A stretch of 64,000 bases of DNA from NCBI GenBank assembly GCA_947568835.1, contig OX387610.1, positions 14,055,001 to 14,119,000 of the forward strand. The letters run 5' to 3'. The notes beneath the pieces were generated by a model, which was given only the letters and a program-made list of their open reading frames with translations, was not told where the DNA came from and did no database searches. The stretch comes from Protonemura montana (lineage: Eukaryota > Arthropoda > Insecta > Plecoptera > Nemouridae). This document shows positions 10,105 to 59,993 of this stretch, one piece after another. Numbering within the stretch: the stretch's first letter is position 1; every line of letters begins with the position of its first letter. A program made the position numbers and the translations under genes.

Positions 10105-10710
10105 TTTATTATTATCAACACTATAACCGTCTCAAAAATTGGTCCCCAAACGGGGATTCTCATCAAATACACTAAAATCGTCTCAAAAGCCAGTGTCCAA
10201 GTAGCTCAATGGTTCAGAGCAACACCCGCGATAAGTGGAGATCGGGGTCCAAGTAGCTCAATTGGTTAGAGCAACACCCGCGACAAGTGGAGATCGGGGT
10301 CCAAGTAGCTCAATTGGTTAGAGCAACACCCGCGACAAGTGGAGATCGGGGTCCAAGTAGCTCAATTGGTTAGAGCAACACCCGCGACAGGTGGAGATCG
10401 GGGTCCAAGTAGCTCAATTGGTTAGAGCAACACCCGCGACAGGTGGAGATCGGGGTCCAAGTAGCTCAATTGGTTAGAGCAACACCCGCGACAGGTGGAG
10501 ATTGGGGTCCAAGTAGCTCAATTGGTTAGAGCAACACCCGCGACAGGTGGAGATCGGGGTCCAAGTAGCTCAATGGTTCAGAGCAACACCCGCGACAGGT
10601 GGAGATTGGGGTTCGAGTCCGCGTTTGGGCATCAATTTTTGAGACGGTTATAGTGTTGTTAATATCAAAATACCCGCGCATTGCAAGCGTTTGCAATTTA
10701 AATAAGATTT
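10105..10710 (+). repeat. tRNA-like inverted-repeat element with 8 A-box units
   Basis: An inverted-repeat arm (attatcaacactataaccg) opens the element. Eight tandem 52-bp units follow, each starting gtccaagtagctcaattgg, which contains a match to the tRNA A box (tagctcaattgg). Only the last unit continues into a B-box match (ggttcgagtcc). The closing arm is tttgagacggttatagtg, then a hairpin (attgcaa, gcgt, ttgcaat) and the usual end taaataagattt. The first and last units read ggttcag instead of ggttag. Confidence 0.92.
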
Positions 10711-11247
10711 TATAGTAATAAAACTACTATTTCTGAACTACAATGCACGGTACACCACAATCATTTCGCTCTCAACTCTCATAGCAATTTAATGACTTTA
10801 TTTTATACAAAAGTAATTAAGAAAAATGTCTCATACCGTTAAACTTCACGAGAAGTTCTTAACAAACACAAAACTAAACAGTCGCGTCCAATGAATTATC
10901 TATTAAACGTTTTATAATTGCATCCAATCCCAGCTTCGTTTTATCACCAGCTTTGTTTTCAGCGGAAAATCTAATAAAACCCCAGAGAACAAATTTGTTA
11001 AAACTAATCCAGAACGATGCTCGGCAGCGTTCATCTCCAGCCAAACTTGTCATCGCTTTTTAACAAATGACAGGCAAAAATAGCAAGGAATTAAAATCTC
11101 CATTTCCCATTTTTCTTTAACCCTTAACCATTTCCATCACGGAAAATCCAGTGAGACAAGAAAGTATTGTAACACATTTCCTCCCTCTGCCTTTTCACCC
11201 CGCTTATGAATTTAAGTGAGCGATCAGTTTTGCATGTTAATCACAGC

Positions 11248-11865
11248 CTTTAAACATTGAGTTTTCAGTTAAAGTCAGAGGACCAGCGTTAATATTAAAC
11301 TTGCTGCTGAGCAAACGAGGCCGGCAACACGTGGTAACGGTAGGTGCCACCCGATGGCGCTTGCTGCTGAGCTAACGAGGCTGGCAACACGTGGTAACGG
11401 TAGGTGCCACCCGATAGCGCTTGCTGCTGAGCAAACGAGGCCGGCAACTCGTGGTAACGGTAGATGCCACCCGATGGCGCTTGCTGCTGAGCAAACGAGG
11501 CTGGCAACACGTGGTAACGGTAGGTGCCACCCGATGGCGCTTGCTGCTGAGCAAACGAGGCCGGTAACACGTGGTAACGGTAGGTGCCACCCGATGACGC
11601 TTTCAACCGTTCTTTTTGACAAAACCTCTACTAATTAAATAATAAAAACTCAAAATATCGGTACATTTATATCAATTGAGGAATTAGCAAAGATCGGAAT
11701 TCAAATGCGAGTAATCTGCGAGATATAAAACACAAAACGACCATCTCCACCTAGAATCGTCCATTGTTTGGCAGTAAAATAGCTTTATGGCGGCTAATTT
11801 TCGTGAAAACCGTTTTACACTATCACTGGTCCTCTATCTATAGACCTATAAACTCAATGGTTCTA
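11248..11865 (-). repeat. 60-bp-unit inverted-repeat element, 5 units
   Basis: A full-length copy with both terminal inverted repeats (left cattgagttttcagttaaag, right ctataaactcaatg), leader and five 60-bp units on the minus strand. Imperfect 15-bp direct repeats (catgttaatcacagc at 11233, catgctaatcacggc at 11866) lie just outside. They are not flush with the ends, so they may be chance or an older event. Confidence 0.88.
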
Positions 11866-12283
11866 CATGCTAATCACGGCTCGCTCTGATTTTGTGAAAT
11901 AGCCTTGCTTTTAGCGTTTAAAATTCTGTGGTACTTTTTTTCAAGATGGCGTTGAGGGGGGGTTGAGGGGGGCTTAAAGCTCGCCGTCTCCTTTGCGGGT
12001 TGAGGATAAATTCGTGCAGGATTAGAAAAGGTTTTGGAACGAGTCTTCACAGCTTAAAGAAATATCCTTTTTCTTTTTAAACGACGAGTCTCTCGTCTTT
12101 TTCCTGCCGCGACTAACGTTTTGCTTAATAAATCCTGAAAGTGTGTAAGATTTAGTTAAAATTTTACGCTGAAACTTTCGTCGAGCGGGGTTTTATATGA
12201 ATCGTTAGATTTCTTTCATTTAGCATCTAAAATCTAGTTTGTACATTTTTTATGGTTGTTTTATATTTCTCAGAAACAAAGCC

Positions 12284-12590
12284 ACTGTATTTTATTATTA
12301 ACAACACTATGACCGTCTCAAAAATTGATGCCCAAACGCGGACTCAAACCCCGATCTCCGCCTGTCGCAGGTGTTGCTCTGAACCAGTGAGCTACTTGGA
12401 CCCCGATCTCCACCTGTCGCGGGTGTTGCTCTAACCAATTGAGCTACTTGGACCCCGATCTCCACCTGTCGCGGGTGTTGCTCTAACCAATTGAGCTATT
12501 TGGACACTGGCTTTTTGAGACGATTTTAGTGTATTTGATGAGAATGACAGTTCTCCAAGGAGTAGAACCAAGAGGCTGTGAATACTCACA
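12284..12590 (-). repeat. tRNA-like inverted-repeat element, 3 units
   Basis: Minus-strand copy. The arm aacactatgaccgtctc leads into the reverse complement of the B box, three 52-bp A-box units, then ttgagacgattttagtgt and the 5' head (atttgatgagaatgacag). The head region matches the composite copy at 53136-53462, which helps define the element's 5' end. Confidence 0.88.
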
Positions 12591-12675
12591 GTCACTCTGA
12601 TTCTAGTGACGCTATATCACGTCACAACCTGTCAATCTCGAATAACTCCAATTTGACGTTGGATGTGTTTTAATT

Positions 12676-13611: not shown

Positions 13612-13753
13612 CTGCAAGAAAACAAAACAATTTGGTTAAGTTTTGTAAGTTGAAACAATTGGCTGGACGTCGTTTGGGGGATTTTGAAAATAAGGTGAGT
13701 TAACTTTGGGGAAAATTATGAAAACATTTTTTATGTATAATATCAGTTTTCCC

Positions 13754-14842: not shown

Positions 14843-15633
14843 TGATTGGCTGATTTGTTGTGTTTAACGACGCATTGTTTTGACAACGGGCCATGCGGCA
14901 TTGGTCTAATGACGTTGGTGAATGAGTAGGCAATAAAGATGACGATGATTTACCTAACCTAGCCTAGAAGGGAGGAGGGGAAACCCGGTGCCGGCACGTA
15001 GTCTACTCCTGTCGAAGACCAAGGGGACCACTGGCTTAACGTCCCTTCCGAAGGACGGTACAACGCGAACAACAGGATTCCTCCACAAATCCAAGCTGTC
15101 GAGAGGTTGATAAGCAAGACGAGTGAAGTTGCTGTACTAACTTTCATCCCTACAACTTCTCTCCCAAACAGAACTGGTCATGTGTATGATGGTCACCTAT
15201 CCAATACCTGACCCAGCGCAGTGTTGCTTTACTTTCATCCCTCCAACCTCTCTCCCGAACAGAACTGGTCATGTGTATGATGGTCACCCATTCAATACCT
15301 GACTCAGCGCAGTGTTGCTTAACTTTCATCTCACCAACCTCTCTCCCGAACAGAACTAGTCATGTATATGATGGTCACCCATGCAATACCTGACCCAGCG
15401 CAGTGTTGCTTAACTTTCATCCCTCCAACCTCTCTCCCGAACAGAACTGGTCATGTGTATGATGGTCACCCATCCAATACCTGACCCAGCGCTGTGTTGC
15501 TTAACTTTCATCCCTCCTACCTCTCTCCCGAACAGAACTGGTCATGTGTATGATGGTCACCTATCCAATACCTGACTCAGCGCAATGTTGCTTAACTTCA
15601 GTGATATAATGAGAACCTGTGTTTTCAACACAA
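14843..15633 (-). repeat. 5S-headed SINE, 5 tandem 5S units
   Basis: A full-length minus-strand copy. From its 5' end it has a 5S-like head (gttgaaaacacagg), five 91-bp units carrying the 5S A-box to C-box region, one 36-bp unit, the Deu-like core (ccttcggaagggacgttaag) and the 3' tail with TCATC-type repeats ending at gtgtttaacgacgc. An adjoining tgattgg run resembles the (tgat)n end seen in other copies. Confidence 0.93.
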
Positions 15634-18222: not shown

Positions 18223-18343
18223 TGGAAGTGAATGGCTCTGGAATTAAGGATGGTGCTGAGCTCTATTATTAACCTGTCTCTTTCAGTTGACGTTAGCGAG
18301 ATAATTTTCTTCATTTTTTTGGAGACTTTCAAACTGCAGAACC

Positions 18344-19230
18344 GAACTGTTTGTCGTGTTGAAAACACTAGTTCTCATAACTTCATAAGAACACCGAAAT
18401 TAAGCAACACTGCGCTGGGTCAGGTATTGGATGGGTGACCATCAAACACATGACCAGTTCTGTTCGGAAGAGAGGTTGGAGGGATGAAAGTTAAGCAACA
18501 CTGCGCTGGGTCAGGTATTGGATGGGTGACCATCAAACACATGACCAGTTCTGTTCGGGAGAGAGGTTGGAGGGATGAAAGTTAAGCAACACTGCGCTGG
18601 GTCAGGTATTGGATGAGTGACCGTCATACACATGACCAGTTCTGTTCGGGAGAGAGGTTGGAGGGATGAAAGTTAAGCAACACTGCGCTGGGTCAGGTAT
18701 TGGATGGGTGACTATCATACACATGACCAGTTCTGTTCGGGAGAGAGGTTGGAGGGATGAAAGTTAAGTAATACTGCGCTGGGTCAGGTATTGGATGTGA
18801 GACCATCATACACATGACCAGCTCTGTTCGGGAGAGAGGTTGGAGGGATGAAAGTTAAGCAACACTGCGCTGAGTCAGGTATTGGATGGGTGACCATCAT
18901 ACACATGACCAGTTCTGTTCGGGAGAGAGGTTGAAGGGATGAAAGTTAGTACAGCAACTTCACTCGCCTTGCTTATCAACCTCTCGACAGCATGGATTTG
19001 TGGAGGAATCCTGTTGTTCACGTTGTACCGTCCTTCGGAAGGGAAGTTAAGCCGGTGGTCCCCTTGGTCTTCGACAGGAGTAGGCTACGTGCCGGCACCG
19101 ATTTTACCTCCTCCCTTCTAGGCTATGTAAGGTTTATCATCATCCACTCATTCACCGACGCCATTAGACCAGCGCCGCATGGCCAGATGTCAAAACAATG
19201 CTATGTTAAACACAGTACTTAATCAATCAA
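18344..19230 (+). repeat. 5S-headed SINE, 6 tandem 5S units, full length
   Basis: The most complete plus-strand copy. The head (gaactgtttgtcgtgttg) is followed by units whose taagcaac motif starts at 18401, 18492, 18583, 18674, 18765 and 18856, an exact 91-base period. Each unit holds an A-box-like gttaagcaacactgcg, an intermediate gtcagg and a C-box match (ggatgggtgacc) as in 5S rRNA genes. Then come one 36-bp unit, the Deu-like core and a tail ending in aatcaatcaa. Confidence 0.95.
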
Positions 19231-20893: not shown

Positions 20894-21897
20894 ATAAGAG
20901 GCTTTACATTTAAACCAAAATGCCCACTCCCTCAAAATCTTTAGGTGCCGTAAGGCAGCGGGTTCTGCTAGTTTCTTTATAAATGCGATTTCTGTTCACA
21001 AACCAAATAGTTTCACTTGATTTAAATCTTCTTTCATAAGAAAGTCGGTAATAAAGCACTGCACAAAGAAGCACATATCGTGCATTTCACAAATTGCTTC
21101 TCGCAAACTGTGACAGGTGCATCAAGACAAAGTGCAATTCGATTTGAATCTGCATTTCAATGCATTCAAAGTGAGACAAATAACAATAACACAGAAGTTA
21201 TGATGACTTGCCACGCATGAGACTACCAGAACGCGTCAATGCATAAAAAGCGTAGAAAAAATATTCATGTAAAATTATCATTTCTCTTTATACTTAGACT
21301 TAGTTAAAAAAAATAAGATCCACCTAAACAAGATAATAACTTTATTGTTAATTTACTTTCTTTTGCCACTTTTGTTTTTAAATATTTTTCAACTAGCTCG
21401 TATAGCAAAGCTAGAAATACTATGCTAAAAACGGCACAATAAATCAAAACTATAGCTTTAGAAATGAAATTAAATCCATTCAATTAGCAACCTAGAAATT
21501 ACTGTATTAATTACTAGATAACTATCAGTTACACCATTAACCCTGCTTCAGTGAAGTAATAAAATCTTTTTACTGTAGTTTTTATGTCGGCTATACTTTA
21601 ATATAAAGTAATGGGGTGAATGGTACTTTATGTGGCCAAAGCTCCTGGCAAAGCTGATAAGTTTGATATCCATTGCTTTTATCAGCTTAAAGCTCATGGG
21701 GGTTATGATTAAAATCACCGTTTTCATGTGAATATTCATAAATGTTCGGTACATGCGGCATTAAATTATACCTGTAATAAAAAAGTTGTTTTGGGCGAAA
21801 TGGCTCATTGGACGCCGGTTCACGAGATGCTATCGCTCATATTTGAAATTGTTCCATTGCTTCTCAGTATTTCGGCTAGGATTAACTATATGTACAT
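20894..21897. other. Non-coding stretch
   Basis: AT-rich, no gene or repeat family recognised. Confidence 0.5.
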
Positions 21898-22922
21898 TTT
21901 TTATTATTATGTACACTAAAACCGTCTCAAAAAGTTATGCCCAAACGGGGACTCGAACCCCGATCTCCACCTGTCGCGGGTGTTGCTCTAACCAATTGAG
22001 CTACTTGGACCCCGATCTCCACCTGTCGCGGGTGTTACTCTAACCAATTGAGCTACTTGGACCCCGATCTCCACCTGTCGCGGGTGTTGCTCTAACCAAT
22101 TGAGCTACTTGGACCCCGATCTCCACCTGTCGCGGGTGTTGCTCTAACCAATCGAGCTACTTGGACCCCGATCTCCACCTGTCGCGGGTGTTGCTCTAAG
22201 CAATTGAGCTACTTGGACCCCGATCTTCACCTGTCACGGGTGTTGCTCTTACCAATTGAGCTACTCGAACCCCGATTTCCACCTATCGCGGGTGTTGCTC
22301 TAACCAATTGAGCTACTTGGACCCCGATCTCCACCTGTCGCGGGTGTTACTCTAACCAATTGAGCTACTTGGACCCCGATCTCCACCTGTCGCGGGTGTT
22401 GCTCTAACAAATTGAGCTACTTGGACCCCGATCTCCACCTGTCGCGGGTGTTGCTCTGACCAATTGAGCTACTTGGACCCCGATCTCCACCTGTCGTGGG
22501 TGTTGCTGTAACCAATTGAGCTACTTGGAGCCCGATCTCCACCTGTCGCGGGTGTTGCTCTAACCAATTGAGCTACTTGGACCCCGATCTCCACCTGTCG
22601 CGGGTGTTGCTCTAACCCATTGAGCTACTTGGACCCCGATCTCCACCTGTCGTGGGTGTTGCTCTAACCCATTGAGCTACTTGAACCCCGATATCCACCT
22701 GTCGCGGGTGTTGCTCTAACTAATTGAGCTACTTGGACCCCGATCTCCATCTGTCGCAGGTGTTTCTCTAACCAATTGAGCTACTTGGACCCCGATTTCC
22801 ACCTGTCATGGGTGTTGCTCTGAACCATTGAGCTACTTAGACACTGGCTTTTTGAGACGATTTTAGTGTATTTGATGAGAATGACAGATCTCCAACGAGT
22901 AGAACCAAAAGGCTATGAATAA
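21898..22922 (-). repeat. tRNA-like inverted-repeat element with 17 A-box units
   Basis: The longest 52-bp array here, with 17 units on the minus strand between the arms cactaaaaccgtctcaaaa and ttttgagacgattttagtg. A single B-box (gggactcgaacccc on this strand) lies at the 3' end. Units differ by scattered substitutions, showing an array old enough to diverge. The tail after the 3' arm is missing: the sequence runs into tttattattatgt and then other DNA. Confidence 0.93.
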
Positions 22923-24883
22923 ATTTTATGTTAAGTCATGAATTCGTTTAGTTTTTCGCCGGTCTGATCCACATAAACTTGACTTCAACTTTGACCTATG
23001 AAAACCAGTAAATATTCACAATCAAATTTAAATATCTCATCTACAGTAGAACATATTATAAAGTATTTTAACTTGACCAAAAAAAAACTAACCCAGACTT
23101 CTCCCACTACTTAAACCAACTATAGACAATCATTACGAATTAAATATACTTTTATATCTGATATTACTCGTCGAGATCAAGGCTGGCAATCTTAAAATAA
23201 TCACACTGACAAACCGCAAAAAAAAAAAAAAAATCTTCAAAATAAAGTCGCTTCATTTTTACAACCTTTTTTTGACAAAGAGATGGTACGCTTGCATTGT
23301 AATTTATCAGAAAAAAAAACTAAATCGCATCAATCCATCATAATTATCAGCGTTCAATGACAATAGAAGATCACTTGAAAAATCTAAATTGGCCAATTTG
23401 AAGCGGATAATCACGGCCACTCATATTTTGACTCCACTTGTTTTTGTGCTGTCAAGGATTCTGCATCTTGGCAACATGTAAACATGCAGACCTGGGTTCG
23501 AGACAAGTCTAGGGTAATTTTTAAATCGTGCGCGACCATGAAAATCCTGGGACAAGGTTAAGAAAGTGAGAGCAGTTCGTAAAAGTGCTGCGTTTTGCAT
23601 CTCAAGACGCTTGTTTTGAATTAAATGACAAGAGGTATTTCTTGTTCTATAGGAAGTTGTTGGTACCTATTATATGAGCCATCTTGTTCTTGGATTTTTT
23701 TACACGTTTGTTCGCTCAGGAGTTGAGTCAGGAAATAAGGATGCTGTTGTCATGGAAGTTTGCACGAAATGCTTTTGTTTTAAAAATGATCTTGAATTAA
23801 TTTTGGATTTATAACGGAATCACGGTCTCTTTGTGTTAAGAAATCAACGTGGTTTCCAATATGCCGTGCAAAGAATATTTTCTAAAGAGATAAATAGCCA
23901 AAGCCTTCTGAATTTTATTGTTCCTCGTAAGTCTTTTGAGTTTAATTTTTACCAATTAACGAATGCTGTAAACCATTTTTAATTTTTTTTTTTGTAAACA
24001 GAAAGATTGCTTATATTTATAGTCAATCCCGTGAATGAAAAGTTTCAAAATGTTTGAATTTGGTATCTGATATGATATTTTAATTTACAAAAAATCTAAA
24101 ATAAATTCTGTAATTTCTTGACAAAGAAATATCTCGAATAATCTTAGATATCAATAGAATTCGCTTCTAATCAACGGTGACATAACCTAAAAAATAAATT
24201 TACATGCAATTTTTTCCAGCAAAACCAAAAAATATCACATTTTGAAATAAATTCCATTCAAGACTCACGACCATTTTGAATAATTGACAGTCAGAACGAA
24301 GAGGGCTGTGTGTTTGGGATCTTGTTTGGTTACTATCTTATTTACTTACAATCAAGAATGCTGTGGTCTTAAATTACATTAGTCTCCGCTAGGGTTTGAA
24401 ACGGTTTCTAAGGAGCCTATGTCATGTGATTCACAAAATGGCCTACTTGCATGCAATCCTGGCACCGAAATTAAAAGTAGATCATTTTTGTGTGATAGCT
24501 TTTGTGTTTTTACTGCTAAGACGGCTAGGTCGACGATAAATTCTAACCACGCACTAGAAATTGGCCGCAAATCTTTCAACGTTAGCACATAATAAAACCT
24601 AATAAGCAATAAGTTTCGTAGAATTGACAAAAAAATAGCTTTAAATGCAAGAAAATAGCAATTTTAAGTTTGCATCTTACTGGAAAAATTTATTATTTTG
24701 GCACTTAAAATTGTCAACACTTCCTATGTAAATTCCATGCCCATCATTTTAATGATTTAGCTATTTTTAACCAAAGTTTTGCGATATTTTTTAAATAGCA
24801 TAACAGTTGCCTTTATATATTTGCATAAAGTAAAAAAAAAACATATGAGTTTATCGTTTGAAACTGATCAATGAAGTTTTTTT
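22923..24883. other. Non-coding stretch
   Basis: No gene supported. At about 23492-23515, gacctgggttcgagacaagt has a B-box-like core and may be an old tRNA-derived scrap. Confidence 0.4.
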
Positions 24884-25514: not shown

Positions 25515-25539
25515 TGGTATGTTACCATTAAAAGAGTCC

Positions 25540-45005: not shown

Positions 45006-45006
<1 letters not shown>

Positions 45007-45619
45007 GACGCCGAGGTCGTTAAATTTATTTGGAAAAAACATCTGGTTTTCCTTCCATCGTAGATTTCCCTCTCCCCTCTCCCTCTAACACACACTAGAG
45101 CGTCCCACAAACTTTTTCACGTATACCTTTACCTTTAAACATTTACATAGTATAATATTCGAAGAACTCTTTCCACCCAAACGCCGCGACGCTGACGAAG
45201 ATGGAGAAAATAAAACGCGTTCATCTTTTGAAAACAAATGTTGGTTCGAAGTAACGGCCGCTCGACACGCGAACCAGCGGCGCTCGGAATCGATTTCAAA
45301 TTTGGAAGTTAGTTGTTCGTGCGCGGGGCTGAAATGCCCCCGAGGGAGAGACTAACAAAAAAAAGTTGCCACATCAATTTCCAGTAGGCCGTGCGACAGA
45401 ATGGACACGTGACAATGACTGCTTCTTTGAAAGCTTTTCAATATTTCGTCTATCGCTTTTGTTAAAGAATTCACCGTAAAAATACCTCATTTTTTGATAA
45501 TTTCTAAAAAAATTACGTTTTTTTGACGCCAAAAATGGAAAAAATCCAACTTATGTATATAATTTAGTAAATGATTACAACTTTTTCAATGACCAGAGAA
45601 GTTCTACTTTAGTTAAAAT

Positions 45620-46436: not shown

Positions 46437-47231
46437 GTCTGGAGTTATAGAGTTCATGATGGTAAAAAATACTTTGGCCCCAAATAAAGATGACCTGGTC
46501 TAAGCATGAGTCGTAACTTTAATCATGAACGAGCTGGGTGCTGGGTCCTATCTCCGTTTCGAAACATAATTGGATTCATCTTTATAAGGTTAGCAAATTC
46601 CGCTAAATAATCTTCTAAAATTTCTCTACAAACCACAAGAATCAAATCAGAAGCAACTAATTGTACAATTTCAAACGCTGAGAGAAACCACCTAGTAGTA
46701 GGTATACAAACTACATATACACACGAAATCTTCTATAACCTTTCAAATATTCTAACATCGACACTGAAATACTTAATTCAATGCCAATTTATTTCCAAAT
46801 GCGTTCGCAATCGTTCTTGCACCATTAAAAAACATTTTCGCGGTTTCTACGCAAGCTATTACACCTCTAAAACAGTACCAAATTGACCAAAAACATAACC
46901 TTCAGTGGAAATAATAAATCTCAATTTCACTTAACCTATAATTATCAATGATCAAATACCATTTATTCACCAGACCGAATCAAAGCGGCCGTTATTATAA
47001 TACTTCACTGCGAGGACTCAGGAAACGGCACGGCTGGTGATAACAAATCTTTTCCATTGTTAATGTTCACGTAAATCAAGGTGCAATTCACTATCAATTA
47101 ATCGACATTGTTTCTTGGTTAAGTTGGGCGTTGCTAGGCTACCGATCAAACGATCTGAGACTTGATATCTGGATGCCTTGGCAACAGACAGTTCTGCCCA
47201 CGTTTGTTACGCTGGGCAACAAGGATGAATC
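46437..47231. other. Non-coding stretch
   Basis: No gene seen. Confidence 0.5.
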
Positions 47232-47760
47232 GAATGGTTTGTCGTGTTGGAAATACTGGTACTCGTGAGATCACTGGAGTTAAGCAACGATGCGCTGGGT
47301 CAGGTATTGGATGGGTGACCATCATACACATGACCAGTTCTGTTCGGGAGAGAGGTTGGAGGGATGAAAGTTAAGCAACACAGCGCTGGGTCAGGTATGG
47401 GATGGATGATCATCATACACATGACCAGTTCTGTTCGGGAGAGAGGTTGGAAGGATGAAAGTAAGTACACCAACTTCACTCGCCTTGCTTATCAACCTCT
47501 CAACAGCATGGATTTGTGGAGGAATCCTGTTGTTCGCGTTGTACCGTCCTTCGGAAGGGACGTTAAGCCGGTGGTCCCCTTGGTGCTCTTCGACAGGAGT
47601 AGGCTACGTGCCGGCACCGGGTTTCCCCTCCTCGTTTCTAGACTAGGTTAGGTTCATCATCATCCTCATCATCATCCACTCATTCACCGACGTCATTATA
47701 TTAGTGCCGCATGGCCAGATGTCAAAACAGTGCGTCGTTGAACACTACAAATCAGTAAAT
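47232..47760 (+). repeat. 5S-headed SINE, 2 tandem 5S units, full length
   Basis: The copy closest to an unexpanded element. It has a head with the best 5S match (tcgtgagatcactggagtta), two 91-bp units, one 36-bp unit, the core and a tail ending in aacactacaaatcagtaaat. Suitable as the reference structure. Confidence 0.95.
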
Positions 47761-50071
47761 CAGAGATAGCAATATTTCCATCTCACTTTTTAATTATGTT
47801 TCTGTAAAAGGGTTTTAAAAATGTCTACAAATCGGTACAGCCGTGTTAGCCTCGCTACGCTCATCCAATGACTGTAGCAGCCCAAGTTCTTAAACGGATT
47901 TTAAATTTGTTTAGAAGTCCAAATCAACTTCACAATCAATTCACTTTAAAAAGCGACCTCAAAAATTGTATATTTGTACAAAACGAATGTGTTGAATTCG
48001 TTGACAATGATAAGACACCTACAGAGCGAGAAAATACTCAACTATAGGCACCTTAACCCAGCCAAGCTAAGTTACCAAGTTAGAGAAACACACCTGCAAT
48101 TATACCGAGCACATGGCTACTTGTTGGCAACTAATTACTCGTTTAAAACAATGAGTCTTTACCGTTTGGAATGAGAACTAAGCGACCAGATCGCCAGATA
48201 TCAAAATGTTAACCTGTTTAGATGATAACCAAACCAGTGTACATAGACATTCTATATCAAGTTTCAAATGAATGCAATTCGTTGAATGCAATGCATACCC
48301 AGATACCGTGTACCTACAATGCTGGTTACAACATAATTGGGCAGTATATTTGTTCTGATAATGATATACCCATTTATCAAAACAAGACAAACCTATTTAT
48401 TTTATTGTTAACCATTGGTAAAGTGATTGGTGAAATTTTTGTTAATTCAGAATGAGTTATAACAGAGGTAATTTTGTAAATAACTTTATGGTTGGACTTC
48501 TGGTAAATGCATCACTCTTCGATAATAGAAAGTAGACATGTGTTATTTTATTAGTGGATTGGTCTCAAAAACTGTTGTAAAATTCTGTAAGTTAAATCAA
48601 AATTCTAAATGATCGAGTAAAAAGTTGTCAGTTGGAAAGACTGATCTGAGATTATCTCACGTAACCAGGCTAGCCGGTCAGTAGAATCGAACCCAAGACC
48701 TCTCGCTTTAGAGCAAAGCAGACAATATCTCGCTTTTACTGTCTTATACCATGTTGAGTGTTGGGTGAAAGGCTAGACAGACGGACAATATCTTGAGATG
48801 ACAGGCTCATTTTGGGAAATTGAGAACAATGTATTTTTGAGATGCGTTTTTTTTGTGCAAATTTTTCACCTATTTTTACTTGAATTTGGATTAATTTTAA
48901 AAATACAATGCAAAACTTAGTTTCGGTGAATATTTATTCATCTGTAGACTTGAATATGCCCGTGATTTGTGATAAAATTACACAATTTATACAATGTTTT
49001 GAATAATTAGGATTGACATAAACATTCAGTTTCTTCAGGCGACCCACTTAAAAACGAAATTGACCCAATAATAATCATACCGAAATCAAAATCGCTATTT
49101 TAAAGAGTTGATATGCATAAATGCAAAAACCCCTCGACATCAAATCTTCGTTGAATTAAAATCTCACATTTCTAAGCCGAGTTAATCTATTTGATGACCA
49201 AACATTTTTCAAACAAGAAATTCTTCTCTGTGAACATTTTGTAAGTAAAGTCAAGTCTTGCACCGTACTTAGCCAAGACTAAGACTGATCCAATTTCTTA
49301 CAACCCGCCGTGCAGACGTCTCCACGACTCAAGCTATTCCATGTAATTTCTTTACTCAAAACGAAGCTAAAAAAACGCTCCGTTCATTAGCATCATTATG
49401 AATGCCTCTTTCACATTACACAGACAGCAATGTTATTTTTCATGCTTTCACACACAAAAAAAACACTATGAGTTAAATATCTGAAATAAAACTCAGTACT
49501 TTTGGGATTGAAAATTATTACAGCCAAGTGATCTGAATTGAAAATCTCCTAATGGTTATTATCGTGTGCTCTAAGCTTTAAATTGTGAACTTTACCAATA
49601 AAGATCCTATCGAAACGAATATAATGTTCGCAATAAAACCAAATAAAAGACCCACGTATTTATTCTTTCTGATAATTTCATATTCCGAAGGAGCACGAGA
49701 CATAATTCATCGTGTAAGGGGATGAACGAGGGATGTTGAACGGGAGTTGAAAGGGGGTTGAAAGGGGTTGAAAGGGATGCCCAATATTTTATGGGCTGTT
49801 GGAAGTTTTATTTCTGGATTCACCATCAGAATTTTGAACTAGAAACGTAGGTTTTTAACGCGAGGGCAAAACGCGGCCCGCTCTTCTCTAGTACCGGCTG
49901 GTAACGCAATAAGAAGCGATGCTAGAATTGATCGGTAAGAAACTTTGATATTCTTGCAAGTCTTTCTTAGACAGTGCGACCACTCATCTATTTTTTTTTT
50001 TGCTAATTTTTTGGATATCCGTACAAACAAGAAGACATTATAAATGTATAGCAATGGTTAAATTAGCGATT
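47761..50071. other. Non-coding stretch with a tRNA-like relic
   Basis: At about 48675-48735, read on the minus strand, aagcgagaggtcttgggttc and gattctactgacc resemble the variable loop and T-arm of a tRNA, probably a SINE relic. At 49892-49934 a 43-base open segment sits between an acceptor-like ctcttctctag and a donor-like gtaaga, but it is too short to call. A gttgaaaggg repeat lies near 49740. Confidence 0.35.
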
Positions 50072-51051: not shown

Positions 51052-51494
51052 ATTGGCTGGGACCTGGCTAGGACCTGGCTAGGACCTGGATAGGACCTGG
51101 CTAGGACCTGGCTAGGACCTGGCTAGGACCTGGCTAGGACCTGGCTGGGACCTGGGTGGGACCTGGCTAGGACCTGGCTGGGACCTGGGTGGGACCTGGC
51201 TTGGACCTGGCTTGGACCTGGCTAGAACCTGGCTAGGACCTGGCTAGGACCTGGTTAGGACCTGGCTGGGACCTGGCTAGGACCTGGCTAGGAGCTGGCT
51301 AGGACCTGGCTAGGACCTGGCAGGGACCTGGGGTGGGACCTGGCTTGGACCTGGCTTGGACCTGGCTTGGACCTGGCTTGGACCTGGCTTTGACCTGGCT
51401 AGGACTTGGCTAGGACCTGGCAGGGGCCTAGCAGAGACCTGGCAGGGGCCTAGCTGCGACCTGGCTAGGACCTAGCAGGGACCTGGCAGGGACA
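51052..51494. repeat. 11-bp minisatellite (ggacctggcta)
   Basis: About 40 copies of ggacctggcta with common variants (ggacctgggtg, ggacctggctt, ggacctggcag), arranged in small blocks of like variants. It lies in intron 1 of the BAIAP2-like gene, about 0.75-1.2 kb from its start exon. Confidence 0.95.
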
Positions 51495-51507
51495 GTGCTC
51501 GGGTTAG

Positions 51508-52985: not shown

Positions 52986-53135
52986 GAAAGTCGCGTGCTA
53001 GGATGGACATAGCATGTTCTGAGATGATCATGAGTGGTATGTTTGTTTTTTTGTTAAAATTATTACTATGATGCTAGTTTGTTTGTCGTTAAATTTGGGT
53101 TGAATTGTAAAAATGTGTTATTTAAGATCATATTT
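52986..53135. other. Non-coding stretch
   Basis: Nothing seen. Confidence 0.4.
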
Positions 53136-53462
53136 GTATTTTATTATTAACAACACTATAACCGTCTCAAAAATTGATGCCCAAACGCGGACTCGAACCC
53201 CGATCTCCACCTGTCGCGGGTGTTGCTCACAGCCTCATGGTTCTACTCCTTGGAGAACTGTCATTCTCATCAAATACACTAAAATTGTCTCAAAAAGCCA
53301 GTGTCCAAATAGCTCAATTGGTTAGAGCAACACCGGAGACAGGTGGAGATCGGGGTTCGAGTCCGCGTTTGGCCATCAATTTTTGAGACGGTTATACATT
53401 TGTTAATAATAAAATACCCCGCGCATTGCAAGCGTTTGCAATTTAAATACAGATTTCATCCT
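53136..53462 (+). repeat. Composite head-to-head tRNA-like element
   Basis: A minus-oriented 3' half (arm, B box, one partial unit) meets, at about 53230, a complete plus-oriented copy with head (ttctactccttggagaactg), one A-box unit, B box, arm and tail hairpin. The two halves are inverted and can fold over more than 90 bp. Confidence 0.88.
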
Positions 53463-54040
53463 AATCATATTTGTTGCTTGCTTTAAATTTATTTTGACCC
53501 GTTAAGGTAATTTCATGCAAATATACAAATTACACGATTTTTTTAAAGTAATAACGGTCAGATCCATTTAGCAAAATTTAAGCTTCGCCCCCATTATTTT
53601 GGGGTCAACCACCCCCTGTAAATCTGAAAACACGGCCATGTAATTGATTGATTAACTCTAAAGATACAAAATTAATCGTTGCTTTGTGAATCCGGCCAGA
53701 GGCAAGGTGAATTATCTTTTAGTAGGTCAAAGGCAATGAAAAGTATTTAAAATGTGATATTGACTAAACAAAGCAGACGAGGAAACGGATATTTTTTTAT
53801 AACCTAAATTACAAAATCAATAATTTTAATGAGCTAAGAAAATATATGGGTATCCTTGATAAGAGTTCATTTTTGGAGCGTGATGGCTTTTGATAGAAGC
53901 ATAAAAGCGAAAGATGGACAATGTTTGACCCAAATTTAATAATTTCCTTCAATGAACTCGAATGTTGATATTTAAATTTGCCATTACGTGTATTTGTCTT
54001 AAATAATTGGCTTTATAATACCAATTTTAGTTAAGATAGT
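53463..54040. other. Non-coding stretch
   Basis: Nothing seen. Confidence 0.5.
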
Positions 54041-55468
54041 TAATTGGTGTTTAACGACGCACTGTTTTGTCATCTGGCCATGCGGCACTGGTCTAATGGT
54101 GTCAGTGAATGAGTGGTTGATGATGAGGATGATGATAAACCTAACCTAGCATACAAAGGAGGAAGGAAACCCGGTGCCGGCACGTAGCCTACTCCTGTCG
54201 AAGACCAAGGGGACCACCGGCTTAACGTCCCTTCCGAAGGACGGTACAACACGAACAACAGGATTCCTCCACAAATCCATGCTGTCGAGAGGTTGATAAG
54301 CAAGGCGAGTGAAGTTGCTGTCGAGAGGTTGATAAGCAAGACGAGTGAAGTTGCTGTCGAGAGGTTGATAAGCAAGACGAGTGAAGTTGATGTCGAGAGG
54401 TTGATAAGCAAGGCTAGTGAAGTTGATGTTGAGAGGTTGATAAGCAAGGCGAGTGAAGTTGCTGTCGAGAGGTTGATAAGCAAGGCGAGTGAAGTTGCTG
54501 TTGAGAGGTTGATAAGCAAGGCGAGTGAAGTTACTGTCGAGAGGTTGATGAGCAAGGCGAGTGAAGTTGCTGTCGAGAGGTTGATAAGCAAGGCGAGTGA
54601 AGTTGCTGTTGAGAGGTTGATAAGCAAGGCGAGTGAAGTTGCTGTCGAGAGGTTGATAAGCAAGGCGAGTGAAGTTGCTGTCGAGAGGTTGATGAGCAAG
54701 GCGAGTGAAGTTGCTGTCGAGAGGTTGATAAGCAAGGCGAGTGAAGTTGCTGTCGAGAGGTTGATAAGCAAGGCGAGTGAAGTTGCTGTCGAGAGGTTGA
54801 TAAGCAAGGCGAGTGAAGTTGCTGTCGAGAGGTTGATAAGCAAGGCGAGTGAAGTTGCTGTCGAGAGGTTGATAAGCAAGGCGAGTGAAGTTGCTGTCGA
54901 GAGGTTGATAAGCAAGGCAAGTGAAGTTGCTGTCGAGAGGTTGATAAGCAAGGTGAGTGAAGTTGCTGTCGAGAGGTTGATAAGCAAGGTGAGTGAAGTT
55001 GCTGTCGAGAGGTTGATAAGCAAGGCGAGTGAAGTTGCTGTCGAGAGGTTGATAAGCAAGGTGAGTGAAGTTGCTGTCGAGAGGTTGATAAGCAAGGCGA
55101 GTGAAGTTGCTGTCGAGAGGTTGATGAGCAAGGCGAGTGAAGTTGCTGTTGAGAGGTTGATAAGCAAGGCGAGTGAAGTTGCTGTCGAGAGGTTGATAAG
55201 CAAGGCGAGTGAAGTTGCTGTTGAGAGGTTGATGAGCAAGGCGAGTGAAGTTGATGTTGAGAGGTTGATGAGCAAGGCGAGTGAAGTTGCTGTCGAGAGG
55301 TTGATAAGCAAGGCGAGTGAATTTGCTGTCGAGAGGTTGATAAGCAAGGCGAGTGAAGTTGCTGTCGAGAGGTTGATAAGCAAGGCGAGTGAAGTTGCTG
55401 TTTAGAGGTTGATAAGCAAGGCGAGTGAACTTGCTGTTGCGAGGTTGATGAGCAAGGCGAGTAAAGGA
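54041..55468 (-). repeat. 5S-headed SINE derivative, 36-bp array (about 33 copies)
   Basis: Minus-strand copy. The 3' end ggtgtttaacgacgc, tail and Deu-like core are followed by about 1.18 kb of a 36-bp unit (gtcgagaggttgataagcaa, then ggcgagtgaagttgct). Differences are almost all single substitutions (gttgag, gatgag, gttgat), some shared by neighbouring units. No 5S unit is present. The frames of 313 to 437 codons across it are open on both strands only because 36 is a multiple of three. Confidence 0.95.
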
Positions 55469-55953
55469 TCATCCCCTGAAGTGGTTATTCATTAAATAAT
55501 AACAAATAAATTGGATGATTGATAAAAATGTATACATTTCCGTGTCCTTTAATTGTTACATTTGAACCCTTGGAACAAATTGCTGGTAGCGACCAATTTC
55601 CTTGATGAAGAGTTCTGAAGAAATCTTGTAAGACATGTGGACTGATCTTAATTACCTCTTGACATGCACCCTTCGTACACGAAGAAGTAATAGTTGTAAG
55701 ACTTCATTTGAATGTCAATTTGTCTCAGATTAATAAAGATCAAATTAATAACTGCTTCGTGTTTGGGTATCTTTTATTAGATGAGCGAGTCCCAGGGTTA
55801 TTCGTGTGCTTGTTTTGCGAAATTCATTTCGAGCCAAATAAAACTAAAAATGTATTCCATCTTAGAAAAAAAAAAATAAAAAAAAAAAACAGATGAAGGC
55901 CAACTATAGTCCATTTCGATGAAAGATTGTAACATTTCTATGCCAGTAATACT
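55469..55953. other. Non-coding stretch
   Basis: No gene seen. A-rich runs near 55865. Confidence 0.5.
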
Positions 55954-56777
55954 GAACGGTTTGGCGTGTTGGAAACACAGGTCCTCGTGAGATCACTGAA
56001 GTTAAGCATCACTGCGCTGAGTCAGGTATTGGATGGGTGACCATCATACACATGACCAGTTCTGTTCGGGAGAGAGGTTGGAGGGATGAAAGTTAAGCAA
56101 CACAGCGCTGAGTGAGGTATTGGATGGGTGACCATCATACACATGACCAGTTCTGTTTGGGAGAGAGGCTGCAGGGATGAAAGTTAAGCAACATTGCGCT
56201 GAGTCAGGTATTGGATAGGGGACCATCATACACATGACTAGTTCTGTTCGGGAGAGAGGCTGTAGGGATGAAAGTTAAGCAACACTGCGCTGAGTCAGGT
56301 ATTGGATGGGTGACCATCATACACATAACCAGTTCTGTTCGGGAGAGAGGTTGGAGGGATGAAAGTTAAGCAACACTGCGCTGAGTCAGGTATGGGATAG
56401 GTGACCATCATACATATGACCAGTTCTGTTCGGGAGAGAGGCTGTAGGGATGAAAGTTAAGCAACACTGCGCTGAGTCAGGTATTGGATGGGTGACCATC
56501 ATACACATGACCAGTTCTGTTTGGGAGAGAGGCTGCAGGGATGAAAGTTAAGCAACACTGCGCTGAGTCAGGTATGGGATAGGTGACCATCATACATATG
56601 ACCAGTTCTGTTCGGGAGAGAGGTTGGAGGGATGAAAGTTAGTACAGCAACTTCACTCGCCTTGCTTATCAACCTCTCGACAGCATGGATTTGTGGAGGA
56701 ATCCTGTTGTACGTGTTGTACTGTCCTTCGGAAGGGACGTTAAACCTTCTTGGCTAGGCTAGGTTCATTATCATCCC
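55954..56777 (+). repeat. 5S-headed SINE, 7 tandem 5S units, core deletion
   Basis: Head gaacggtttggcgtgttgg, seven 91-bp units and one 36-bp unit. The core jumps from gggacgttaaacc to ttcttggctaggc, dropping about 75 bases, and the tail is cut short. Unit variants (gaggctgcaggg, gaggctgtaggg, gaggttggaggg) are interleaved rather than clustered, suggesting multi-unit duplications. Confidence 0.93.
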
Positions 56778-57308: not shown

Positions 57309-57657
57309 CCTCTCAAAGCAGAAGTCTGTTTTGAATTCGGGAGGTCCCAGGTTCGATCCTGGTGGCTGGCTATCCTAGGGAGGTCCCAGGTTCGATCCTG
57401 GTGGCTGGCTATCCTGGGAAAGTCCCAGGTTCGATCCTGGTTGTGGTATTCCGCAATTTGCAACAACTACTCCAGGCAAGCGCCGGGATAGTCCCTAGAT
57501 ACCAAAGAACACGACCGCTTCCTTTTCTCATTCCTTACTGTTATTATTCTATTTTTATTCTGACTACTAATTGCCATTCACCATCCTCGTCCTTATCATC
57601 ACCCTTCAAGATCATCATCATCATGACCTCCTGACAAATATCAAAACAGTGCGTCAA
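57309..57657 (+). repeat. tRNA-related SINE with triple B-box unit
   Basis: Contains three tandem 39-bp units, each with the self-complementary T-arm-like tcccaggttcgatcctgg (motif starts 57344, 57383, 57422), which includes a B-box match (ggttcgatcc). A body follows, then a tail with ttcaagatcatcatcatcat and caaaacagtgcgtcaacg. The tail resembles that of the 5S-headed SINE, suggesting use of the same LINE machinery. A second copy of the 3' end lies at 59168-59267. Confidence 0.8.
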
Positions 57658-58433
57658 CGAACGCTTTGACGTGTTGGAAACACCGAAGTTAAGCAACACT
57701 GCGCTGGGTCAGGTATTGGATTGGTGACCATCATACACATGACCAGTTCTGTTCGGGAGAGAGGTTGGAGGGATGAAAGTTAAGCAACACTGCGCTGGGT
57801 TAGGTATTGGATGAGTGGCCATCATACACATGACCAGTTCTGTTCGGGAGAGAGGTTGAAGGGATGAAAGTTAAGCAACACTGTGCTGGGTCAGGTATTG
57901 GATGTGTGACCATCATGTACATGACCAGTTCTGGTCGGTAGAGAGGTTGGTGGGATGAAAGTTAAGCAACACTGCGCTGGGTTAGGTATTGGATGGGTGA
58001 CCATCATGTACATGACCAGTTCTGGTCGGTAGAGAGGTTGGTGGGATGAAAGTTAAGCAACACTGCGCTGGGTCAGGTATTGGATGGGTGACTATCATAC
58101 ACATGACTAGTTCTGTTCGGGAGAGAGGTTGGAGGGATGAAAGTTAAGCAACACTGCGCTGGGTCAGGTATTGTATGGGTGACCATCCTACACATGACCA
58201 GTTCTGTTCGGGAGAGAGGTTAGAGGGATGAAAGTTAAGCAACACTGCGCTGGGTCAGGTATTGGATGGGTGACCATCATACACATGACCAGTTCTGTTC
58301 GGGAGAGAGGTTGGAGGGATGAAAGTTGAGCAACACTGCGCTAGGTCAGGTATTGTATGGGTGACCATCCTACACATGACCAGTTCTGTTCGGGAGAGAG
58401 GTTAGAGGGATGAAAGTTAAGCAACACTGCGCT
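57658..58433 (+). repeat. 5S-headed SINE, 9 tandem 5S units, no core
   Basis: Starts with a shortened head (gctttgacgtgttggaaaca) fused to the tail of the preceding SINE and holds nine 91-bp units, ending abruptly at actgcgct. Unit variants recur at spacings of two units (the ggtcggtagagagg pair; the tatgggtgaccatccta pair), indicating duplication of multi-unit blocks. Confidence 0.93.
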
Positions 58434-58468
58434 CAAAACTCGCTATTATATAAAACTTCACTCGCCTA

Positions 58469-59126
58469 TTTCACAATGTATGCATGTGATATCTAAACTA
58501 AATCTCACTTCAAATGACAACCTTAAATAGGCATGATTATAAATTACTATACACAAATGAGATGTATTTTTTTGAAAACGTCGCAAAAAGTTCAGTTATA
58601 AAGAAGCGGATTGCAAGAAAACCAGAGGGACTTTCTGCGTTAATCTTAAGAGAGGAGACATATGCATTTGTTACAAATTTCAGTGGGAAATCTATAACTT
58701 TCCTTCCCCTATCGATTCCCGGAAGAAAAATGGGATAAAAAATAAAAAAAGCGTTAGCCATATGTGTGCGTGAAAATAATAAGCAAGATACGATTTATCA
58801 CCGAGGTCAGCATATTGGGATGACTTTTCCAACCCTTGGGATGCAAGCGTTGTTGTTGGCCTGTAACCCTTTGTCGAGGAGGGTCGTAACTCAAAAAAAG
58901 TAAATGCGGATTTCAAGTTTTCAACGTTCGTAGCATCACGAGCACGTAGCGTTAGGAAATAGAGGTATTGTTTCTTTATACGTTGCAGGATAAGGTTTAA
59001 TTTTGCTCTGAAGAGAAATTGAATTTAAAAATGATGCATTGTTATTTGCTTACTTGAAACTTGTAGATGTATTTTAGAGCTAAATTTGAAATAATTAAAT
59101 TGTCAGAGTATTTGGTACAAAACGAT
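58469..59126. repeat. Dispersed duplication, copy A
   Basis: About 0.66 kb also present at 61548-62200 in the same orientation. The last 370 or so bases (from gcgttagccatatgtgtg) are nearly identical, while the first 270 carry many indels and substitutions. No terminal inverted repeats or target duplication were noticed. A minus-strand open frame with RPSSTKGYRPTTTLASQG is shared by both copies, but the function is unknown. Confidence 0.9.
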
Positions 59127-59167
59127 TTTCTATTTTGCTTGGGCCTGTCCACTACGCATCCTAAATT

Positions 59168-59267
59168 GAGTTTCTCTGACTACTAATTGTCATTCACCAT
59201 CCTCGTTCTCATCATCACCCTTCAAGATCATCATCATCAAGACATTCTGACAAATATCAAAACAATT
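59168..59267 (+). repeat. tRNA-related SINE, 3' end only
   Basis: Matches the last 100 bases of the SINE at 57309-57657 (gactactaattg, ttcaagatcatcatcatc, gacaaatatcaaaacaa) and, as there, runs straight into a 5S-headed SINE. Confidence 0.8.
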
Positions 59268-59993
59268 TACCGTGTAAGAAACACCGGTTCTTATGAGAAC
59301 ACCGAAGTTAAGCAACACTGCGCTGAGTCAGGTATTGAATGGTTGACCATCATACACATGACCAGTTCTGTTTGGGAGAGAGGTTGGAGGGATGAAAGTT
59401 AAACAACACTGCGCTGAGTCAGGTATTGGATGGTTGACCATCATACACATGACCAGTTCTGTTCGGGAGAGAGGTTGGAGGGATGAAAGTTAAGCAACAC
59501 TGCGCTGGATCAGGTATTGCATGGTTGACCATTATACACATGACCAGTTCTGTTCGGGAGAGAGGTTGGAGAGATGAAAGTTAAGCAACACTACGTCGAG
59601 TTAGGTATTGGATGGTTGACCATTATACACATTACCAGTTCAGTTCGGGAGAGAGGTTGGAGGGATGAAAGTTAGTACAGCAACTTCACTCGCCTTGCTT
59701 ATCAACCTCTCGACAGCAACGTCACTCGCCTTGCTTATCAACCTCTCGACAGCATGGATTTGTGAAGGAATCCTGTTGTTCGCGTTGTACCGTCCTTCGG
59801 AAGGGACGTTAAGCCGGTGATCCCCTTGGTCTTTGACAGGAGTAGGCTACGTGCCGGCACCGGGTTTCCCCTCCTCCCTTCTAGGCTAGGTTAGGGTTAT
59901 CATCATCCTCATCATCATCCACTCATTCGCTGACGCCATTAGACCAGTGCCTCATGGCTTGTTATCAAAACAGCGCGTCGTTAAACACCTTGC
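59268..59993 (+). repeat. 5S-headed SINE, 4 tandem 5S units, full length
   Basis: Head (gtgtaagaaacaccggttct), four 91-bp units, two 36-bp units, complete core and a tail ending gcgcgtcgttaaacacc. The second 36-bp unit reads caacgtcactcg where most read caacttcactcg. Confidence 0.95.

Follow-up and report, generated by a model that had tools for sequence, protein, structure and literature searches.

The closest described counterparts of the arrays studied here are the SINE-derived satellites (sSats) of squamates, in which, as described in PMC10702118, part of a SINE is tandemly repeated. According to the same account, several SINE families have given rise to such arrays independently and the snake unit includes box B; the SINE itself is dispersed, but its longer arrays show a tendency toward subtelomeric positions, and units are alike both within and between loci. 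PMC10702118 also questions whether several of the transposable element (TE)-to-satellite cases listed in PMC9659126 arose from SINEs. The view, taken in a preliminary description of the present DNA, that no single described system covers such arrays went too far, since published sSats include examples whose unit contains box B and whose arrays have a subtelomeric bias (PMC10702118). Here, we analyzed a 64,000-nucleotide stretch of the stonefly Protonemura montana (contig OX387610.1, positions 14,055,001 to 14,119,000; the window) together with related arrays elsewhere in the genome. The overall pattern seems to be one of ordinary growth of satellite DNA and not of selection for additional promoters.

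Array-bearing elements in the window

All tandem arrays named in the preliminary description were detected in the window by Tandem Repeats Finder (TRF): eight of the 91-bp unit (2.0 to 8.2 copies), four of the 52-bp unit (3.0 to 17.0), four of the 60-bp unit (5.1 to 10.1), and one of the 39-bp unit (2.6), with matches of 91 to 97% in all 17. That list of four units was incomplete, as TRF also detected a 36-bp unit, located in the body of the 5S SINE that carries the 91-bp unit, with 2.0 copies at 26050, 8.1 at 32692, 33.0 at 54280, and 2.2 at 59677. Further TRF arrays in the window have units of 118 bp (8487), 114 bp (29036), and 11 bp (51054).

The 5S head attributed to the first element was borne out by four full-length Rfam matches in the window (42 to 47.8 bits), which places these SINEs in the SINE3 class; 47 scored 5S places genome-wide gave 108.7 to 117.5 bits. 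The 91-bp unit combines the 5S A box to C box with neighboring SINE sequence, and the whole 5S internal control region is repeated within it. On the forward strand, 5S SINEs with 91-bp units lie at 18341–19229 (6.1 units at 18396–18948; Rfam 5S, 44.3 bits at 18341–18464, TRF, and self-BLAST), 25538–26252 (5.1 units at 25585–26045, plus 2.0 units of 36 bp at 26050–26122; TRF and self-BLAST), 47227–47762 (2.0 units; Rfam, 42 bits, and TRF), 55950–56746 (7.1 units at 55999–56641; Rfam, 47.8 bits, and TRF), and 59175–59989 (4.1 units at 59305–59674, plus 2.2 of 36 bp at 59677–59754; Rfam, 42 bits, and TRF). Other 91-bp arrays were found at 15138–15598 (reverse strand, 5.1 copies, in a 5S SINE; TRF and sequence), 30147–30604 (reverse strand, 5.0 copies; TRF), and 57686–58433 (forward strand, 8.2 copies; TRF). 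Two reverse-strand 36-bp arrays detected by TRF, at 32692–32981 (8.1 copies) and 54280–55466 (33 copies), each lie in the body of a 5S SINE, and a box scan found no Pol III box in either. As in sSats, SINE sequence, head or body, flanks the 91- and 36-bp arrays, the unit being a part of the SINE. In single copies, the amplified segments are bounded by the direct repeats AAGTTA (6/6) and ACAGCA (5/6), a check that used 6 of 20 SINE loci; each segment is thus flanked by 6-bp direct repeats, the arrangement predicted for slippage or microhomology-mediated repair.

The tRNA-like character of the 52-bp element was likewise correct, with four full-length Rfam tRNA matches in the window; the element was rejected as a plain tRNA SINE on account of inverted ends, seen by eye. 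The copy at 10102–10719 (forward strand; TRF) has a tRNA-like core, 8.0 units (10195–10612), and an 11-bp direct flanking repeat, ATAAAACTACT. Arrayed members of the family are also present at 12286–12584 (reverse strand, 3.0 units; TRF and self-BLAST), 21897–22921 (reverse strand, 17.0 units, the last of which completes a tRNA-like match of 48.5 bits; TRF and Rfam), and 45605–46435 (forward strand, 12.0 units; TRF), and forward-strand single-unit copies at 24880–25183 (Rfam tRNA, 34.4 bits) and 53133–53475 (Rfam tRNA, 39 bits), the latter with the 11-bp direct flanking repeat ATCATATTTGT. When flanks were compared across 24 crude end pairs, the longest word in common had 11 letters in two pairs, 15 in one, and 6 to 9 in the others, and mismatched end pairs in the same comparison often shared a word of 8. 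A Helenus-type element was considered and set aside because the anatomy differs: as described in PMC10886601, Helenus carries its tRNA-like sequence in LTRs and has target repeats of 4 to 5 bp.

Arrays of the 60-bp unit occur at 11300–11602 (reverse strand, 5.1 copies, in a MITE-like element with inverted ends by eye), 36730–37336 (forward, 10.1 copies), 38318–38807 (forward, 8.2 copies), and 39772–40077 (reverse, 5.1 copies), all from TRF; self-BLAST placed a single-unit copy of this MITE family at 3919–4220 (forward strand). Because of their inverted ends (by eye), the 52- and 60-bp elements are not classed as sSat hosts; the 5S SINE is one. No clear direct repeat was found at the 52- and 60-bp units in single copies (9 of 20 interior loci in the 52-bp family), and direct repeats were therefore rejected as a general rule across families. 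The 39-bp array (57339–57441, forward strand, 2.6 copies; TRF and box scan) holds a B-box-like motif with two mismatches to the consensus.

Genome-wide recurrence and chromosomal position

The 52-, 91-, and 60-bp arrays are not confined to one locus: exact unit-unit junction 23-mers number 9780, 14687, and 1070, respectively, in the whole genome, and a reversed-pattern control gave 0 in each case. The 39-bp unit is different, its exact junction (a single 28-letter pattern) occurring twice genome-wide, both times at the window locus, and it was dropped as an array family. Relative to their elements, junctions amount to 6.7 and 3.3 per end site for the 52- and 91-bp units, respectively, 2.1 per body site for the 60-bp unit, and 0.25 for the 36-bp unit, whose junction pattern fits one lineage only. 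The longest array noticed has ~65 units (contig C1, 1.119–1.122 Mb).

Where these arrays lie along the chromosomes was examined mostly on C1, with position thresholds chosen after the data had been seen. Below 1.4 Mb on C1 there are eight 52-bp arrays and 11 end-sites of the element, three of which belong to counted arrays, compared with no array and 32 end-sites at 1.4–19.03 Mb (Fisher P = 1.2e-4). For the 5S SINE, an exact 91-bp junction lies upstream in 7/15 copies below 2 Mb on C1 (90 bp away in one of the seven, eight units away in another), and arrays were found in 0/20 copies at 5–20 Mb, 18 of which have the 5S head (P = 9.6e-4, left end versus interior). Junctions of the 36-bp unit on C1 are restricted to 31.1–32.7 Mb, and its first 20.1 Mb hold 100 body sites. 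On C1 to C4, six 60-bp arrays are distal (≤5 Mb from the end) and none is interior, with 37 MITE sites in the interior (P = 0.029). Of 1436 first-look candidates for the 52-bp unit, 40 places were scored (the window's own included), and all of them lie ≤3.8 Mb from a contig end; of 1557 for the 60-bp unit, the 40 that were scored (at least three from the window) all lie ≤5.5 Mb from one. Both sets were chosen by likeness to one array.

The distal bias has exceptions. Six short 52-bp arrays occur at 19.0–25.1 Mb of C1, 8 to 14 Mb from the nearer end, no exact 60-bp junction was present at 31 MITE sites at 21.4–23.1 Mb of C4 (2.7 to 4.4 Mb from the end), and no array was found in three unselected stretches ≤3.2 Mb from a chromosome end. 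The left end of C1 is also not denser in 91-bp junctions, with 100 among the matches listed in its first 2.3 Mb (~43 per Mb) versus a genome mean of ~57 per Mb (14687 in 258.5 Mb). With these exceptions, with post hoc thresholds, and with the 91-bp data taken from the matches listed, the C1 samples show distal arrays and dispersed single copies, as described for sSats, and almost all sampled interior copies have a single unit. Chromosomal position predicts arrays better than promoter content does, position being confounded with lineage.

Origin and spread of the arrays

The explanation we lean toward is that the arrays are TE-seeded satellites, produced by growth and probable exchange of units between loci in distal chromosome regions. 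Arrays form with or without a promoter in the repeated block, mostly toward chromosome ends, which points to ordinary satellite-DNA growth. In this scheme, part of a short element, whether or not it includes a promoter, would be duplicated in tandem, in the 5S SINE possibly through slippage or microhomology-mediated repair at the 6-bp direct repeats, and the array would then grow and shrink. In the 60-bp family, and less surely in the 52-bp family, units may be exchanged between loci, presumably by recombination. Growth or retention would be favored in the distal few megabases, which may be permissive.

Support for unit exchange comes from divergence comparisons, from which, as from the flank, typing, and flanking-repeat comparisons, duplicates and contained copies were dropped. 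At selected loci, units differed less between loci than the adjoining element sequence did in 365/378 pairs (60 bp) and 45/45 pairs (52 bp), with units below 75% identity dropped and loci dropped if the flank was <90% of the wanted length or ≥0.35 from the reference flank. The same held in 1/3 pairs for the 91-bp unit, for which differences of 0.063 within arrays, 0.073 between arrays, and 0.085 in the body were also obtained. Counting also in favor of TE-seeded growth, the C-type 52-bp unit occupies 4/32 edge positions of arrays and 0/145 inner ones. The four 52-bp arrays of the window are less alike than the selected loci, their between-array difference of 0.073 (ungapped, edges included) being near the flank's 0.10, a flank comparison from which short BLAST pieces were dropped. 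Arrays on the same chromosome were not more alike, as 60-bp pairs differed by 0.051 on the same chromosome (179 pairs) and by 0.046 on different ones (172 pairs). A more far-reaching version, which we regard as tentative and rather doubtful, is that distal regions form one exchange domain, where unrelated elements, both retrotransposed and inverted-end, have their modules amplified and passed between loci and chromosomes without transposition, so that units stay alike as their hosts diverge. If it were true, the many interior single copies would be a built-in control for the birth of tandem repeats by chromosomal position.

Alternatively, array-bearing lineages may transpose as arrays, a master copy having gained an array and its descendants having been inserted, or having survived, mainly in distal regions; the distal bias would then reflect insertion or retention instead of local growth. 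We consider this possible but on the unlikely side. Differences within and between arrays are almost equal (0.039/0.038 for the 52-bp, 0.059/0.061 for the 91-bp, and 0.041/0.040 for the 60-bp unit, units below 80% identity being dropped), as expected if arrays predate dispersal, and this high similarity within and between loci is also that of sSats. Lineage markers separate arrays from interior singles as well. The 36-bp marker reads CATT in 19/20 interior copies and CACT in 21/22 elsewhere. The 52-bp unit is C-type in 12/16 interior single copies, and 122/145 inner array units are T-type; this typing left out one cut array and units without a recognized D-arm motif (12/17 units at array 21957 had one). 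Moreover, the arrayed 52-bp copy at 10102–10719 has its 11-bp flanking repeat. In contrast, joint dispersal does not make units more alike between loci than the adjoining element sequence, as seen at the selected loci of the 60- and 52-bp families, interior singles and arrays differ in their 91-bp consensus at only 1/91 positions, single-unit copies adjoin arrays in the window (24880, 53133, and 3919), and a block repeat at 15 units shows later in-place growth in one array. That interior copies are single merely through age was rejected: an ungapped comparison had shown 11.4% divergence, but gapped local alignment gave 0.02 to 0.15, with 13/18 interior single 5S SINE units ≤0.058 from the array consensus, compared with 0.026 to 0.058 for window arrays (two short window bodies dropped).

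It is improbable, in our judgment, that extra Pol III promoter modules would be selected or would confer a transposition advantage, as the preliminary description proposed; for the 5S unit this is conceivable. Three of the units it listed coincide in part with Pol III promoter elements, the 91-bp unit holds the full 5S control region, and junctions are more frequent for the 91- and 52-bp units (3.3 and 6.7) than for the 36-bp unit (0.25). There are also precedents, in that the gibbon LAVA VNTR sets mobilization efficiency (PMC4432496), and Galileo repeats with extra transposase sites have been proposed to raise efficiency (PMC4079207). However, sequence outside promoter modules is amplified too: the 36- and 60-bp units, with up to 33 and 30 copies, contained no A or B box at ≤1 mismatch, in a scan of limited power (an A-box match at one mismatch was obtained on both strands of the 114-bp unit). 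Junctions of the 60-bp unit, at 2.1 per body site, come near the 3.3 of the 5S unit, the 52-bp unit has an A box and no B box, so that extra units add no complete promoter, and the 39-bp array is one locus. An advantage would also be expected to yield arrays wherever elements insert. The other option raised there, a genome-wide tendency to slippage inside short elements, survives in part: promoter and non-promoter parts both form arrays, and minisatellites of other kinds exist (47 bp × 42, 41 bp × 60, and 45 bp × 4 in unselected stretches), but the tendency is uneven, with a distal bias in the samples.

Wrong expansion of repeats by the assembler is very improbable, given that several families are affected in many places and that units within an array differ, partly in a locus-specific manner (permutations 0/200 for the 52-, 91-, and 60-bp units and 104/200 for the 36-bp unit, comparing ≤20 units per shuffled array).

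Comparison with described systems

If arrays are TE-seeded satellites, SINE-derived satellites would be extended beyond squamates and beyond SINEs, with a 5S SINE, a tRNA-like inverted-end element, and a MITE seeding arrays of similar distal bias in one genome. Which copies turn into satellites would then appear to depend on chromosomal position and not on the promoter, and the many dispersed single-unit copies would allow the first step in the birth of satellites to be counted.

As described in PMC10702118, squamate sSats share with the present arrays a SINE part in tandem, a distal bias, and units that are alike within and between loci. They differ in that the SINE here is 5S-headed with two segments amplified separately, that two further families with inverted ends are not plain SINEs, and that the longest array noticed has ~65 units versus up to 1000. 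The SVA/LAVA VNTR, in the account of PMC4432496, is likewise an array carried inside a non-autonomous element, and its expansion and contraction take place at the DNA level and involve microhomology; there it is a constitutive domain that sets LAVA mobilization efficiency, whereas the interior copies read here have one unit. In the Tetris foldback element of Drosophila virilis (PMC4079207), tandem repeats of an element with terminal inverted repeats (TIRs) also seed satellite arrays in a particular chromosomal environment, but that account concerns one element and beta-heterochromatin, compared with several families and distal regions here. Finally, the TE-to-satellite cases listed in PMC9659126, including Hy/Pol III (tRNA-related), Xenopus Satellite 1, and the MITE satellite miDNA4, resemble the present arrays in that tRNA-related or MITE-internal segments became arrays; they are given there as single families in separate species.

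Tandem arrays in the window and their genome-wide abundance

Tandem Repeats Finder recovered every array that the preliminary description had named in the window; its entries were correct, and the list was incomplete in that 36-, 118-, 114- and 11-bp arrays were absent from it. The 36-bp unit, which lies in the body of the same 5S-headed SINE that carries the 91-bp unit on its head side, reached 2.0, 8.1, 33.0 and 2.2 copies. Rfam scored the window elements as 5S in four cases (42-47.8 bits) and as tRNA in four (34.4-48.5 bits). The other minisatellites found by Tandem Repeats Finder, with units of 11 bp (39 copies, 51054-51487), 118 bp (3.4 copies, 8487-8882) and 114 bp (4.9 copies, 29036-29597), had no match elsewhere in the window by self-BLAST. 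A segment of some 655 bp was also present as two direct copies, 3 kb apart (58468-59126 and 61547-62200).

The assembly comprises 258.5 Mb in 34 contigs, 11 of which (13.0-33.1 Mb each) total 247.6 Mb, and the window, C13:14055001-14119000, stops roughly 3.7 Mb short of the contig end. Over this whole assembly, we counted exact patterns for unit-unit borders (junctions) and for element copies (end or body sites), with the reversed-pattern control returning zero each time. There were 9780 junctions and 1465 element ends for the 52-bp unit of the tRNA-like element (the end, present in both inverted repeats, being counted up to twice per element), 14687 and 4452 for the 91-bp unit, 1401 junctions and 5544 body ends for the 36-bp unit, and 1070 junctions and 520 body sites for the 60-bp unit of the MITE-like element. 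The 39-bp junction occurred twice genome-wide, both times inside the window. The resulting junctions per end or body site (6.7, 3.3, 0.25 and 2.1 for the 52-, 91-, 36- and 60-bp units, respectively) are rough, since exact patterns favour certain lineages and the 36-bp junction pattern includes the lineage marker CACT.

Several related features were seen alongside. The tRNA-like element had clear 11-bp flanking direct repeats at window 10102-10719 and 53133-53475, and candidate ones of 8, 9 and 15 bp at three loci elsewhere (L071, L084 and L089). True 5S genes (116.7 bits) recurred on another contig (C11:1-105743, L012-L038), initially as repeats of roughly 9.5 kb, each containing three 5S genes on both strands; one of these genes (L013) has a histone 3' stem-loop 184 bp away, which suggests a putative histone-5S linkage on this contig.

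Promoter content and origin of the units

An amplification confined to promoter modules is at odds with the 36- and 60-bp arrays, which lack an A or B box at up to one mismatch in what is a weak scan. Against the box consensi, neither box was found in the 36-bp unit even at two mismatches, and the 60-bp unit scored an A box only at two. The junction ratio was highest for promoter-bearing units, and that of the 60-bp unit (2.1) was near that of the 5S unit (3.3), in which the 5S control region is repeated. In the 52-bp unit, the scan gave an A box at one mismatch and no B box; therefore, extra units give no complete type 2 promoter. The scan is weak because the 114-bp unit (A boxes at one mismatch, both strands) and the 118-bp unit (A and B boxes at two mismatches) also score, and both arrays were therefore left out as evidence. 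Promoter advantage is a weak explanation of the arrays.

As to how the units arose, the 91-bp segment was bounded by two AAGTTA motifs in all six single 5S SINE copies tested, and the 36-bp segment by two ACAGCA motifs in five of six, against a background of direct-repeat runs of at least 6 at 1.5-7.7% of other periods. No comparable repeat was found at the unit borders of the 52- and 60-bp families.

Unit similarity within and between loci

Distances between units were about the same within as between arrays for the 52-, 91- and 60-bp families (15, 14 and 30 arrays), which are nevertheless slightly homogenised locally, the observed value being matched by 0 of 200 permutations in each. Local homogenisation was not detected among the three 36-bp arrays (104 of 200 permutations reached the observed value). 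In the 60-bp family (28 loci), sequence flanking the array differed between loci by 0.204, or by 0.128 in a BLAST projection of 34 copies, and the units differed by 0.048, with units closer than flanks in 365 of 378 locus pairs; the same held for 45 of 45 pairs in the 52-bp family (10 loci) and one of three in the 91-bp family. Most of the compared 60- and 52-bp loci were chosen for the resemblance of their arrays, a choice that brings the unit distance down. With window arrays only, the 60-bp units differed by 0.043 between arrays and the contrast with the flank stayed, whereas the 52-bp units differed by 0.073 (ungapped, edges included) against 0.10 for the flank, and the contrast was nearly gone. 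In the 91-bp family, the distances within arrays (0.063), between arrays (0.073) and in the SINE body (0.085) do not tell competing models apart.

C-type units stood at the edge of three 52-bp arrays (both edges at 10195, L001; one edge in L007 and at 21957), which suggests foreign units within resident elements. A 36-unit 52-bp array (L074) contained a block repeat of 15 units: units at lag 15 differed by 1.19 on average, and those at the remaining lags between 1 and 24 by 1.5-2.0. Such a pattern is a signature of unequal exchange within the array.

Chromosomal position, lineage and published systems

Position lists were limited to the 100 matches that come first when contigs are taken in order, and distance limits were chosen after inspection of the data. 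Among the matches listed, 52-bp ends were dispersed on C1 (33.1 Mb), with eight junction clusters (11 ends) below 1.4 Mb and none (32 ends) at 1.4-19.03 Mb; six short clusters (15 ends) listed at 19.03-25.11 Mb argue against a strict distal rule. None of 20 interior 52-bp loci read was an array, and the 40 52-bp places that were scored, out of 1436 candidates, all lay within 3.8 Mb of an end, the 40 scored 60-bp loci, out of 1557, within 5.5 Mb. Junctions of the 60-bp unit, among the matches listed, were absent from C1 and on C2-C5 all lay within 5.1 Mb of an end; on C1-C4, with a 5-Mb limit, listed MITE sites were 38 distal and 37 interior, and 60-bp arrays six and none. A second limit on the distal rule comes from C4, where 31 exact MITE body sites are clustered in 1.7 Mb (21.44-23.12 Mb) and lack any exact 60-bp junction; this cluster would represent either a local burst or a segmental duplication. 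Among the matches listed, 36-bp junctions on C1, whose pattern carries the CACT marker, fell only at 31.1-32.7 Mb (72 rows), and 100 body ends fell in the first 20.1 Mb.

For the 5S SINE, a second 91- or 36-bp unit was found in none of 20 sites read at 5-20 Mb of C1 (18 with a single-unit 5S head, two truncated). Below 2 Mb, an exact junction lay a whole number of units upstream in 7 of 15 listed (one at 90 bp, one eight units off; Fisher p=9.6e-4 versus interior), the distal set being scored from pattern positions and the interior set from sequences read. The 100 listed 91-bp junctions all fell between the start of C1 and 2.3 Mb, at about 43/Mb versus a genome mean of about 57/Mb. Among ten unselected 5-kb stretches, large arrays occurred in the two less than 1 Mb from an end: 47-bp (42 copies, 341-2310) and 91-bp (8 copies) units in L069, and 41-bp (60 copies, 2523-5000) and 52-bp (36 copies) units in L074. 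Arrays were absent from three stretches at most 3.2 Mb from an end and from two farther in; the remaining three had arrays of at most 4.2 copies (periods of at least 15 bp).

Age alone is insufficient for the interior-distal contrast, as most single 91-bp units from the interior (13 of 18) were within 0.058 of the array consensus (gapped local comparison), the mean distance in window arrays being 0.026-0.058 (ungapped). Lineage also differed: the 36-bp segment nearly always carried CATT in interior copies (19 of 20) and CACT in copies elsewhere (21 of 22), and 12 of 16 interior 52-bp singles were C-type versus 0 of 145 inner array units (122 T-type). Position and lineage are therefore confounded in this contrast, and the CATT/CACT split between the C1 interior (L099-L118) and the window and other loci is a possible sign of region-limited homogenisation. 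The most interesting question that these data raise is whether array growth is driven by position as such or by lineage.

We conclude that the arrays are real and widespread, that they are satellites seeded by TEs, that the sampled places show a distal bias in which lineage is not separated from position, and that in this one genome a 5S SINE and two inverted-end families serve as seeds simultaneously. Meiotic breaks would be a plausible route here; in humans they yield microhomology-bearing duplications, and indels are commoner near telomeres (PMC7615360). Work on LAVA and SVA describes internal array changes at the DNA level, driven by microhomology, and an effect of the LAVA array on mobility (PMC4432496). 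These satellites are of a known kind: tRNA-related and MITE-derived satellites are on record in a review (PMC9659126), and key features of the arrays are common to the squamate SINE-derived satellites (PMC10702118), in which part of a SINE, with box B in snakes, is in tandem, units are alike within and between loci, locations are subtelomeric, above all when arrays are long, and dispersed SINEs serve as the control.
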